Of a stretch of DNA of 64,000 nt, positions 12,183 through 63,993 are shown piece by piece. Under the pieces are notes generated by a model. The model worked only from the letters and a program-made list of their open reading frames with translations. It made no database searches and was not told the DNA's origin. The translations under genes were made by a program, and so were the position numbers. Source of the DNA: Ianthella basta (lineage: Eukaryota; Porifera; Demospongiae; Verongiida; Ianthellidae). Position 1 is the first letter of the stretch. The number at the start of each line of letters is the position of its first letter. The DNA is taken from assembly GCA_964019415.1 (NCBI GenBank), contig OZ025888.1:1327383-1391382 (forward strand), in the 5' to 3' direction.

Positions 12183-12373
12183 CTACATCAGCTCCATCTT
12201 GATGTCATCTGAATCAGGCTGTGCAATTGACTTTGTCTTCATCTTCATCTTGGCCCGCACTAGAGTCCACAGCAGCACTGCTAGTGCAATGAGTGCAGCA
12301 ATGATCAGTACTCCCACCACTGGCAGTACAACAGCGAGAATAATGGTTGTTGAACTGTCAGATGTAGAGGATC
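12183..12373 (-). CDS. Gene A: transmembrane helix and cytoplasmic tail exon
   Basis: Last exon, 191 bp, ending in TAG. It encodes a short Ser/Thr linker, a ~27-residue helix ([20 protein letters not shown] and on to VLLW), the stop-transfer [10 protein letters not shown], and the C-terminus [10 protein letters not shown]. There is no kinase domain, ITAM or other named signalling motif. Confidence 0.88.
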
Positions 12374-15300
12374 CTACAGAACAGAAAAGTGATAATGCGA
12401 AGTTGGAACGTATAATAGACAATTATTGCCATACTGCAAAGTTACTACAGTACATGCTTTCTGGATGTTTGTCACTACCAGCTATGGTTGCAATCAGATC
12501 TTGGTAATTGATAACTGAGCTAGTGATGCCATCCTGGCAAGACCTTTAGTGTACCCAAATCTGTAGCGGATCAGGTAAGCAGAGCATGAAGGGAGTGTGA
12601 TCAATGTGAGTGACCACTGTCAGTGACTGTAATTTTGACAGCATAATTTCTCAGCCGGTGGTCTGGAGCACAGTTTCACAAGAATGTCACTCAAAATCAG
12701 TACCAATCTATATGGCTTGCATACTGTCTGTTTACTTATTGCAAAGTTTTTTTTACCCTTGGTACCACAATGTCTGCACCATCCTCTGTCTCAAATCATA
12801 ATGACATCATTCATTAGGTCAATAACCAAGTACTGATATATAACTGATTAATTGCAACCATCAGTCATAAACACTATGCAACATAACTACAATGGAGTTA
12901 CCTTATCTAGGAAGCAGAATTAGCTATTCACAATTATGTAATTCTGTGAGTGTAAAGTCCTTGCAAATATATTTATACGCATCAGCAAGAATTCAAAGAC
13001 AGCAATTGTAAGTTCTATTGCTCTGTCTACCTTCCTGTGGCTCCACAGTGATAAAGACAGGCTCACTAAACACTCCCTGGTAGTTGTCGCCATTCACCCC
13101 AGCACACTGCACAATGCCATACAGTGGAGGAGAGGGAGTAACAGAAGCAATATTTTGATTGTAAAAATATTATAGTAACTCCACAGAAAACTGATACAAT
13201 TCACCATGCTAGTTATACATGTTCATGCAATCAGCTGTGGCAGATCTAGATTGCTGGCCTTTAAATTTACCTGAACTTTGTATTCTCCAGCTTCTTTAAC
13301 AGAGACGTCAGTTGTCTCAGATGGCTTCATTCTGACCTGTGAGGTGACCCCAGTGATGACAGATGTGTAGTTACAGACATACTCAACTACAACATCCTGA
13401 GGCTGAAGACCATCAATGGAGAATGTGCCACTGCCCACAGTGACATTTGGGGGAGGAGGCCTTTCAGGAGCTGTGTATTGGAAGGAGAGAGTGGAATGGA
13501 AGGCAAGTACATGCATGAATATAATTGAATGATTTCTATTCATAATAGTGAACAGTTCTATTTCATCTGCCAGTTACTGTTTCTTACCTGCAATAGCAGT
13601 GGTGAAGTGATTGGTCTCACTCTTAAAGCCTCCGTCAAGATCGCGAGGGCAGTACCTGTGGTAGGCCACAACCCTCAGAACACACTGTGAGGGAGCAGGG
13701 AGGCTAGTGAGAGTGTAGGAGAGTCCTTCAATGTTCTCAGCCACCAACTGGTAACTGCTCTCATTCCCACACCGGCTGTAGACAGCATAACGCATGCCAG
13801 TTGCCAACAGTGGGTCATCAGTCTGAGCAGCCTGCCAAGTGATGGTGGCTGATCCTGGTAAGATCACAGGGGTGGCTACCACTAGAGGGCCAGTGTCTGG
13901 ACACCCTGCAGTGTAAGGGAATGCCAGTAGAGAGAGGAAGGATGTGATAGGCTCAGAGGATAACACCACAAGCTTCATTCAGACACGTATAATCACTGGT
14001 AGTGGGACAAAAAGAAGTAAATAGATGCTTATCACTGAGCTGCATTAGGTCACCACTTCCATGTACAAGTACAGTATCACTTGTGGAATGACTGTCCCTA
14101 GATGAGCTACGTATCTAAGAAGTGGAATCTAGGGCAGAAGGCATGCATTCAATGGAGAAAACTACAAGGTCTATATGAAAATGCTTGGAGGAACTGCTAA
14201 TCAGCCAAACAGCACCAAACGGTACGTTGACTATGCATTATCTTCATTCCAGTAGAAGCCTTGAATTCATTGCTGGCTACTTATTATTGACTCACTCTGT
14301 GTTGTGTTGAAGGAGAAGTTGACAGACTGCCCTGCACACAGTGTGCTGTAAGTGAAGGCAGTGATGGTCACTGTGTACTCAGTCACTGCCTCCAGATTAG
14401 GAAGGATAGCCTGTGTCTCTGCAGAAAGGATAGTCTGTGTATCTGCTGTGTCTTCCACTGCAGATGTCCCATTCTGCCACTCCACATGGTATAAAATAGA
14501 CCACATGTCTGGGGTTGATGGTCGGTCCCACAATAGGGTCACATTCGGAGGGAGTGGACTGCTTATTCTTTGGTTCTGAGGTGGTCCTGGACAATCTGTG
14601 CATAATTTAGTATTGTAATTCATAATTATCCATAATTACTACGTATGCGACAGATAAAATATAACAGTTTACTCCCATCAACTTACCCACACACGGGTGT
14701 GATGAGTTATACTCATCAACCCTCCCAGTACCATCCATGCAGGAACAAATATGGATCACACCACCAGGTGAGGAGCTACGTGTTGGACAAGGTTGACATA
14801 TTTCTGTTGTCTCCCCAACATACTCATTGACTGAACACACTGTATGAAGGATGCAAGGAAGAAGCTAAGTACATTAATTCTGATACTGTGGAACACTAAG
14901 ATACAGAATGTTGTGATGCGTACTAAATTACCTGCCATAAAGCTGCCTGTTGTGTCTTTAAGGGGACTGTTCACATCCAGCAAGCAATGGTCACTGTACA
15001 CCACTACCCTCAGCACACACTGGGTCAGGGTGGGCAGGGTAGTGATGTTGTAAGACAGTCCTTGGATGTCATCATCAATCAGTTGGAAGGTGGTCTGTGC
15101 TCCACACTGACTGTACAGTGCATATCTGATCCCTGTCACTAGAGGGTCACTGGAGTCAGCAGCTGTCCAGTTCACCCTGACAACACCAGGCTGCACTGTA
15201 GGAGGACCACTGAACATAGGGACAAGGCTGGGACATCCTGCAATAGTAAATTTGAATCATTAGCTTAAGGAAATATCTATAATGTAATTTACATAATTAT

Positions 15301-63900: not shown

Positions 63901-63993
63901 ACACAGTACCCCATAAACCACTGTGGTAGACTTCTACACGCCCCTCATATACTCTGGAACCGCCCACCAGGCGAATAGAACCCTCTGTAATTA
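54754..63993 (-). CDS. Receptor gene C: modular SRCR/FN3/ephrin-like receptor (5' end outside window)
   Basis: Nineteen exons, 1,543 residues in frame to the stop, entering from the right edge in phase 1. Order: SRCR, FN3, FN3, ephrin-like, FN3, FN3, FN3, ephrin-like, FN3, FN3, ephrin-like, FN3, FN3, ephrin-like, FN3, FN3, split FN3-like domain, transmembrane helix, tail. It carries more copies of the [ephrin-FN3-FN3] unit and fewer SRCR modules (one in the visible part) than A, so ligand-facing composition differs between paralogues. The signal peptide and unnamed module are expected to the right of base 64,000. Confidence 0.87.
55931..56671 (-). CDS. Gene C: split membrane-proximal FN3-like domain (exons 17-18)
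   Basis: Exons 56472-56671 and 55931-56015, phase-0 junction, same split as gene A. Ends [21 protein letters not shown]. The last exon is three codons longer than in A. Confidence 0.75.
56779..57096 (-). CDS. Gene C: FN3 module (TGCPD type), exon 16
   Basis: 318 bp, phase 1-1: [49 protein letters not shown]. Confidence 0.85.
57108..57182. repeat. (GA)n microsatellite forming a (TC)n tract at a splice acceptor
   Basis: About 75 bp. In the gene C transcript it is (UC)n ending about 12 bases before the AG of exon 16, where a polypyrimidine tract belongs. Confidence 0.95.
57490..57765 (-). CDS. Gene C: FN3 module (DCPGSP type), exon 15
   Basis: 276 bp, phase 1-1: [47 protein letters not shown]. 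Confidence 0.85.
57847..57999 (-). CDS. Gene C: ephrin-receptor-like module, exon 14
   Basis: 153 bp, phase 1-1: [49 protein letters not shown]. Confidence 0.83.
58318..58623 (-). CDS. Gene C: FN3 module (CPSP type), exon 13
   Basis: 306 bp, phase 1-1: [50 protein letters not shown]. Confidence 0.85.
58784..59059 (-). CDS. Gene C: FN3 module (DCPGPP type), exon 12
   Basis: 276 bp, phase 1-1: [53 protein letters not shown] 207-bp core is almost identical to exon 9 (60089-60364). Confidence 0.86.
59226..59378 (-). CDS. Gene C: ephrin-receptor-like module, exon 11
   Basis: 153 bp, phase 1-1: CPVNEYVGGTPEACQPCP, VVRECPC, GTGKVNESDPTIPCVG. Confidence 0.83.
59579..59884 (-). CDS. Gene C: FN3 module (CPSP type), exon 10
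   Basis: 306 bp, phase 1-1: [55 protein letters not shown]. Confidence 0.85.
60089..60364 (-). CDS. Gene C: FN3 module (ACPGPP type), exon 9
   Basis: 276 bp, phase 1-1: [56 protein letters not shown]. Confidence 0.86.
60560..60712 (-). CDS. Gene C: ephrin-receptor-like module, exon 8
   Basis: 153 bp, phase 1-1: [41 protein letters not shown]. Confidence 0.83.
60832..61137 (-). CDS. Gene C: FN3 module (CPSP type), exon 7
   Basis: 306 bp, phase 1-1: [49 protein letters not shown]. Confidence 0.85.
61254..61529 (-). CDS. Gene C: FN3 module (ACPGAP type), exon 6
   Basis: 276 bp, phase 1-1: [54 protein letters not shown]. Confidence 0.85.
61922..62197 (-). CDS. Gene C: FN3 module (DCPGPP type), exon 5
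   Basis: 276 bp, phase 1-1: [50 protein letters not shown]. Confidence 0.85.
62329..62481 (-). CDS. Gene C: ephrin-receptor-like module, exon 4
   Basis: 153 bp, phase 1-1: [41 protein letters not shown]. Confidence 0.83.
62678..62989 (-). CDS. Gene C: FN3 module (CPSP type), exon 3
   Basis: 312 bp, phase 1-1: [20 protein letters not shown] with an inserted [32 protein letters not shown]. Confidence 0.84.
63096..63383 (-). CDS. Gene C: FN3 module (VCPGAP type), exon 2
   Basis: 288 bp, phase 1-1: [54 protein letters not shown]. Confidence 0.85.
63658..63993 (-). CDS. Gene C: divergent SRCR module, first exon in window
   Basis: 336 bp, phase 1-1. Six cysteines kept ([51 protein letters not shown]), but the loop between the second and fifth cysteines differs strongly from all other copies ([27 protein letters not shown]). 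Confidence 0.86.

Follow-up and report, generated by a model that had tools for sequence, protein, structure and literature searches.

A clustered family of putative type I membrane receptors or adhesion proteins with variable module content in the sponge Ianthella basta

A 64,000-nucleotide stretch of the genome of the demosponge Ianthella basta (assembly GCA_964019415.1, contig OZ025888.1, positions 1,327,383 to 1,391,382 of the forward strand; hereafter the window) carries three modular receptor genes, A, B and C, which belong to a cluster of related genes of about 1.75 million bases. Our reading, to which we assign a probability of roughly 60%, is that the cluster encodes type I membrane receptors or adhesion proteins, a family that reshuffles its modules. 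What distinguishes the units of the cluster is the gain or loss of stalk modules and the sharing of short stretches among them; the units change mainly by modules, not by visible selection on point mutations, because ratios of nonsynonymous to synonymous divergence (dN/dS, omega) rarely exceed 1. Tandem modular SRCR/FN3 receptors are a known kind of system, of which the present cluster is a variant; no such array in a sponge was found in a search of the open literature, which covered neither subscription literature nor preprints. The genes underlying sponge self-recognition and receptor individuality are, to our knowledge, largely unknown. The cluster described here is mapped and mechanistically readable, with module gain, module loss and copying between genes all directly measurable.

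Gene models, module identities and extent of the cluster

We examined the window together with 100 kb on either side (264 kb, window numbering used throughout). Module profiles built from window seeds were run on the stop-to-stop frames of this stretch, and splice models were obtained by dynamic programming on AG/GT sites. Modules started at 12189 on the minus strand and continued rightwards; profiles and splice models alike confirmed the head-to-tail order of A, B and C on this strand that an earlier note on the window had described. In the splice models, the three genes encode single-pass proteins with a nine-exon head, a variable run of SRCR, cysteine-rich (EPH) and FN3 exons and a short tail, the number and order of the three module types varying among A, B and C as the note had stated. 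Its count of three genes stood for A, B and C, but not as a limit of the cluster: within the 264 kb, units A to G have full heads, H is truncated and I is partial. Similarly, the N-terminal module that it had assigned to A and B is common to both, but not restricted to them, as C has a head identical in kind, situated beyond the window together with two more C SRCR exons. The bounds given earlier, 12183 and 63993, coincide with the last base of A and with the 5′ boundary of an SRCR exon of C, respectively. The features are as follows.

12183..32773, minus strand: gene A, 28 exons, model of 2068 aa; order head (N1-N7, 9 exons), [SRCR-SRCR-EPH-FN3a]x2, SRCR-SRCR, [EPH-FN3b-FN3c]x2, JX/JX2, transmembrane exon
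29012..32773, minus strand: head of A, with signal peptide N1 (32636-32773) and conserved N-terminal block N2-N7
22010..22295, minus strand: third SRCR exon of A, with a 10-bp deletion relative to two sister copies
13031..13470, minus strand: juxtamembrane domain of A, encoded by the exon pair JX/JX2 (split 1-0/0-1), which C, E and I also have
12183..12373, minus strand: transmembrane exon of A, followed by a cytoplasmic tail of about 25 aa and a stop
35615..48428, minus strand: gene B, 20 exons, model of 1454 aa; order head, SRCR-SRCR-EPH-FN3b-SRCR-FN3b-FN3c-EPH-FN3b-FN3c, transmembrane exon
44050..48428, minus strand: head of B (splice model)
54754-77276, minus strand: gene C, full model of 32 exons and 2376 aa, running past the window
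54754..64000, minus strand: in-window part of C, with one SRCR, four EPH and eleven FN3 modules, JX/JX2 and the transmembrane exon
63658..63993, minus strand: third SRCR exon of C (splice model)
58399..58522, minus strand: homogenised core of an internal FN3c exon (genome search with the 124-bp core)
82741-98166, minus strand: unit D, model of 1402 aa
101221-114228, minus strand: unit E, model of 1374 aa
117203-129119, minus strand: unit F, model of 1268 aa
132375-137689, minus strand: unit G, model of 634 aa, one SRCR
140556-146472, minus strand: unit H, 274 aa, head exons N1-N4 followed by a membrane exon; doubtful, with a weak splice site as the join
JX at 155193 to N3 at 163881, minus strand: unit I, with N2 and N1 matches just beyond and no SRCR match

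None of the eight models A to H contained an internal stop, the damaged exons in A and D (see below) being passed via splice sites picked to keep the frame. Splice sites were conserved, and in the models the stalk exons (SRCR, EPH and FN3) were of phase 1-1; the sole exception was the SRCR-FN3b junction of D (1-0/0-1), which lies at a 5′-truncated FN3b for which the program had picked alternative sites.

The SRCR assignment was supported: gene B (first model, 1398 aa) matched PF00530 above the cut-off in three stretches with an E value of 2.2e-95. Six cysteines were invariant in all nine aligned SRCR modules, which corresponds to the group A pattern, and each module was encoded by one exon. 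SRCR domains of group A have six cysteines and those of group B eight, and single-exon modules have been linked to group B. All 13 FN3b/FN3a modules matched PF00041 at E ≤ 0.1 (best 4.8e-10), compared with one of nine FN3c modules (E 0.0022). For FN3c, a predicted structure (predicted local distance difference test score, pLDDT, 69.9) had many FN3 domains among its top fold matches, none of them at E ≤ 0.001 (best 5.9e-3). The label 'ephrin-like', given earlier to the cysteine-rich modules, was not supported by Pfam: none of 10 EPH modules showed an ephrin-receptor-like match at E ≤ 0.1, and weak TNFR-like or other matches occurred in one or two members each (best E 0.0039). A full Pfam scan, made for gene B only, found four families. 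The conserved head of units A to G, signal peptide and block together, comprises about 450 residues and gave no Pfam or PDB sequence matches. It is conserved in molluscs, echinoderms and cnidarians, and its homologues in other animals (111 matches) carry SRCR, EGF, TSP1, Ig or FN3 domains; a head search with C for long relatives returned four matches, with no sponge named among them. When a head homologue was compared by Foldseek, the top matches were mostly Ig-domain chains that overlapped poorly as a whole, at a query TM-score of only 0.12-0.18 (50 rows shown), and a second fold analysis indicated an Ig/cadherin-like fold in one domain, mainly residues 264-375. The cluster has amplified a deeply conserved animal head domain that lacks a Pfam entry. 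At the opposite end, units A to F terminate in -ELM, -DLM, -DLL, -DMM, -DLM and -DTM, a [DE]-x-hydrophobic pattern that resembles a class III PDZ ligand and is absent from G.

The extension of the locus in both directions, as the earlier note had proposed, gave more units on the right but none on the left, where the profile search with window seeds found no module matches in 100 kb; a weak N1 match at 10399-10470, the signal peptide of an unrelated small protein, was excluded from the counts. The suspected continuation past the right edge was borne out: the SRCR subfamily extends about 74 kb further, to unit G, and relatives without window-type SRCR reach 2.66 Mb on the contig carrying the window (C21). 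For genome searches (209 Mb), single-module proteins served as queries. Most of the large cluster is mapped by exon matches; other genes may lie between heads, and outside the 264 kb the module counts per unit are lower bounds, as neighbours may be merged and divergent heads missed. Head exon N5 had 42 matches in the genome, 36 of them on C21 (912,892 to 2,616,423) and 30 of these 36 on the minus strand; two of the 36 (912,892 and 1,221,014) are plus-strand matches to the left of the window, and the minus-strand run starts with A. FN3c gave 121 matches, 117 of them on C21 (916,297-2,664,106), and the best 71 of 144 EPH matches were all on C21. Between neighbouring heads, the lower-bound FN3c count was zero in 15 of 36 intervals, two in eight and 20 at maximum. 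The transmembrane exon, which the earlier note had seen in A, B and C alike, had seven matches genome-wide, all at C21:1,339,571-1,459,924. On C21, window-type SRCRs were confined to 1,344,053-1,460,850 among the 150 of 1123 candidates scored, and the remainder of these 150, on other contigs, had at most 81% identity to those of the window; among the scored matches, window-type SRCRs and membrane exon are thus restricted to about 120 kb of C21. A gene at C21 911-919 kb has the order head-EPH-FN3b-FN3c-EPH-FN3b-FN3c-JX, without SRCR. We infer head-[EPH-FN3b-FN3c]n-JX-membrane as the basic unit, with insertion of an SRCR-SRCR-EPH-FN3 block in the subfamily A to G. The SRCRs on contig C8, up to 81% identical in sequence to those of the window, are a possible source.

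Some matches lay outside C21. A stretch of C8 (C8:3,465,000-3,480,999) combines SRCR, EPH, FN3b and FN3c modules with classical-looking FN3s, apparently in a different kind of gene. At 1.94-2.98 Mb of the same contig, one strand carries some two dozen weak EPH-like matches, a number of them interrupted by stops, which perhaps represent a second array of related cysteine-rich modules. Paired equal-scoring SRCR matches at C1:15,322,246 and C55:48,205 suggest that part of C1 has been retained twice, with C55 as the duplicate (haplotig).

Module turnover, exchange and FN3c homogenisation

Comparison of neighbouring units supported the earlier proposal that the locus diversifies by module gain and loss, as did the module maps. 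Units F and G share blocks of 4466 bp at 90.6% and 1543 bp at 91.3% identity, and their head coding sequences are 94.7% identical; a stretch of about 7 kb of the F stalk (118.0-125.0 kb) is represented in G by about 360 bp. The single SRCR of G is a hybrid, resembling the second SRCR of F along most of its length and the fourth best in the last 50 bp. In the pair C and D, 371 bp (C 62886..63256, D 84754-85121) are 98.7% identical, covering the intron between an FN3c and an FN3b exon together with parts of both exons, and identity drops to 43-69% within about 150 bp on either side. We read this patch as a recent exchange between genes. The match of the truncated FN3b of D ends at 85123, next to the patch edge at 85121. 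Within A, the SRCR-SRCR-EPH-FN3a block is duplicated, and elsewhere FN3c exons occur at a 2.7-kb period in two stretches. Trees of the heads and of the 3′ ends agreed on B+D and F+G, the remaining head branches being weak, and SRCR modules clustered by position only in part (four of 19 inner branches starred in the tree). A PHI-type test (500 shuffles) was significant for SRCR (P 0.008), FN3b (0.002) and head (0.008). Module turnover thus very probably proceeds by recombination. Because the introns are uniformly of phase 1, unequal crossover anywhere inside the stalk would be frame-safe, so that module number would change easily. A GT-rich run follows the end of the N7 exon in all eight copies (A to G and I), ranging from short in D to a long (GT)n, and occupies 28812-29008 in A. 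It sits where the fixed head meets the variable stalk and could favour recombination. If the diversification model holds, module content should vary among individuals.

A different pattern was found in FN3c. In ten internal FN3c exons (from A to E and I), synonymous differences between genes (pS) fell along the exon from 0.294 through 0.171, 0.120 and 0.047 to 0.017 and rose again through 0.033, 0.110 and 0.226 to 0.328, whereas the same profile in ten other module classes remained at 0.15-0.54 with no mid-exon valley. The five terminal FN3c copies, profiled apart, had a low stretch of 0.057 at codons 21-40. Intron flanks of the internal copies showed 46-48% aligned identity, no better than expected for unrelated sequence. 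The core was also present in a copy on the opposite strand, at a distance of over 400 kb, and when the 124-bp core from the window was used as a query, the best 40 of 96 candidates all lay on C21, on both strands, at 97-100% identity (1,342,396-2,664,053). The GC content at third codon positions (GC3) along the FN3c exon was 0.49, 0.55 and 0.64, compared with 0.36-0.49 in nine other classes. Judged by these alignments, gene conversion centred on the exon is the probable cause; short conversion tracts centred on FN3c exons would keep these exons alike across 1.3 Mb. The cluster would thereby offer an independent comparison for regional gene conversion of the protocadherin style.

Pairwise dN/dS was calculated without unit H and without the two damaged exons, the frameshifted SRCR of A and the truncated FN3 of D; these two exons were also left out of the PHI-type tests and the pS profiles. 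Removal of pairs with dS ≤ 0.02 or not computable left 95 of 120 EPH, 117 of 136 FN3b and 64 of 91 FN3c pairs. Median omega was 0.50 in the head, 0.39 in SRCR, 0.39 in FN3c, 0.35 in FN3b, 0.33 in EPH, 0.36 in JX, 0.85 in FN3a (three pairs) and 0.71 in the membrane exon. Values above 1 were found in 0 of 21 head pairs, 2 of 210 SRCR, 1 of 95 EPH, 0 of 117 FN3b, 0 of 64 FN3c, 0 of 3 JX, 1 of 3 FN3a and 2 of 21 membrane exon pairs. Pairwise and sliding-window dN/dS gave no broad positive selection; in the head, a few windows of 20 codons lay close to 1 (maximum 1.31). In the third SRCR exon of A, the 10-bp deletion causes loss of the SRCR frame after '...ETRLAD'; since the sister exons are of phase 1-1, skipping this exon would keep the reading frame. 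One FN3 exon of D is 5′-truncated, and partial FN3c copies occur elsewhere, two of them with stops.

Possible roles and comparison with known systems

Surface receptors would fit the stalk modules and the single membrane exon, and a role in recognition or adhesion, immune/microbe or cell-cell, seems likely from the predicted architecture. The proteins would stand on cells and bind ligands via the head and the SRCR modules, stalk length and module set would shape reach and specificity, and signalling, if any, would go through partners.

Several results weigh against this picture of recombining recognition proteins. A fast-evolving recognition surface should show diversifying selection, of which there was no sign (medians of 0.33-0.50, no head pair above 1). 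Decay is visible in part of the cluster: A and D each have a damaged exon, and unit H is truncated. No signalling motif was recognised in the tails by eye, no dedicated search having been made. As regards FN3c, the GC3 peak lies at codons 71-93, outside the core, and the PHI-type test with 500 shuffles indicated no mosaicism for FN3c (P 0.295; 41 sites) or EPH (0.852). Because the test was non-significant for FN3c, synonymous constraint could explain its core: the cores would be alike through a constrained nucleotide function, such as a splicing enhancer or a recombination signal, and not through gene conversion. The very low amino-acid change in the mid-exon valley and the presence of a low stretch in the terminal copies as well are in line with this explanation. 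The low stretch of the terminal class, however, occupies other codons (21-40 versus 41-60), GC3 is raised in FN3c, and Rfam at gathering score found no family in the window. We therefore regard constraint as unlikely and favour conversion for the core by about three to one.

The purifying median omega in head, SRCR, EPH, FN3b and FN3c, the short tails, the damaged exons, unit H and the partial FN3c copies would also suit a family with a structural or matrix-adhesion role, in which neutral birth and death underlies module turnover and discrimination plays no part. This we consider unlikely, as heads remain open in A to G and SRCR modules are typical of binding receptors. An allorecognition (histocompatibility) locus would have individuals carry different module sets, and matching of head or SRCR would decide between fusion and rejection. 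A large cluster of membrane proteins that reshuffles modules is what such a locus might look like. Sponges discriminate self from nonself, and for Amphimedon grafting the accessible text reports no significant enrichment of adhesion genes mediated by the aggregation factor (PMC5450542). Omega below 1 in all 21 head pairs speaks against allorecognition, and the terms 'SRCR' and 'fibronectin' are absent from the main text of the grafting paper (PMC5450542); we judge this explanation quite unlikely.

Nearly all stalk exons are of phase 1-1, so that exon skipping, including that of the damaged exons of A and D, would be frame-neutral. A single locus, or a few loci, might accordingly yield many isoforms by alternative or trans-splicing of interchangeable exons, but every unit from A to G comes with a head and a transmembrane exon of its own, and no shared constant exon was found in the 264 kb, which makes this very unlikely. 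Dscam and clustered protocadherins make many isoforms by other means. An assembly artefact, with paralogues collapsed or mis-joined, appears extremely improbable. Near-identical tandem modules are hard to assemble, and part of C1 apparently recurs in C55, a sign that the assembly may retain duplicates; yet the 264 kb contain no Ns, and units with unrelated introns show consistent phases and order.

Among known systems, the tandem SRCR clusters of sponge and sea urchin (PMC10855680) are alike in that duplication of one- and two-domain units changes the number of SRCRs, and in Amphimedon 158 of 296 SRCR genes are given as tandem (PMC10855680). Here, in contrast, a common head and FN3/EPH exons define a larger cluster, one subfamily of which contains SRCRs, and each SRCR is one exon, whereas most tandem-linked sponge SRCRs are described as spanning three (PMC10855680). 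In Halichondria panicea, more than 600 SRCRs and individual-specific receptor expression have been reported; these receptors likewise combine SRCR and FN3, the source being a transcriptome study whose accessible text gives no locus structure or head (PMC8242945). The head itself recurs in bivalve DMBT1-like proteins (Mercenaria P0002, 42% identity; Ruditapes P0004, 40%) together with SRCR domains; these proteins differ in having a ZP domain, which Pfam did not find in B, and no FN3 domain is listed for them. Sponge aggregation factors are Calx-beta/wreath proteins. Calx-beta was not among the four Pfam families of B, the only gene scanned in full, and the likeness to aggregation factor genes lies in their being candidate sponge recognition molecules (PMC5450542). 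The ectodomain of Hydractinia Alr is of Ig type; the Pfam scan of gene B at E ≤ 0.01 gave no Ig family, and the head homologue has its Ig/cadherin-like fold in one domain.

The clustered protocadherins of fugu resemble the present cluster as tandem adhesion receptors in which part of the ectodomain is homogenised synonymously across paralogues and the rest has diverged, and the available text ascribes this regional homogenisation to gene conversion (PMC1852091). They differ in several respects: Pfam found no cadherin family in gene B, no shared constant exons were seen, as each of A to G has its own transmembrane/tail exon, module number varies here, and the homogenised unit is a single exon core. 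A protocadherin-like locus of self/non-self identity in a basal animal, made of different components and based on whole-exon reshuffling and exon-centred gene conversion, is distinctly unlikely; if true, heads and FN3c cores would be kept compatible, and stalk and SRCR content would vary between genes and between individuals.

Neighbouring and intercalated elements

A 2-kb intergenic repeat, 92% identical between copies, lies between B and C (51854-53868) and between C and D (79910-81895). Just beyond the first copy, an open reading frame (ORF) at 54028-54435 gave no Pfam match; it resembles a RecQ-helicase fragment. An intron of A contains an ORF with a THAP domain (26157-26591, E 3.9e-5), perhaps a transposon remnant. 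To the left of the array, a minus-strand ORF of 682 aa (7498-9543) showed a borderline esterase match (E 1.7e-4) and was 99% identical to one ENA protein and 30-77% identical to eight others. Further left, at 472-5996, a separate gene is represented by minus-strand ORFs, presumably RhoGAP exons, and by an exon encoding a PH domain (E 1.2e-8).

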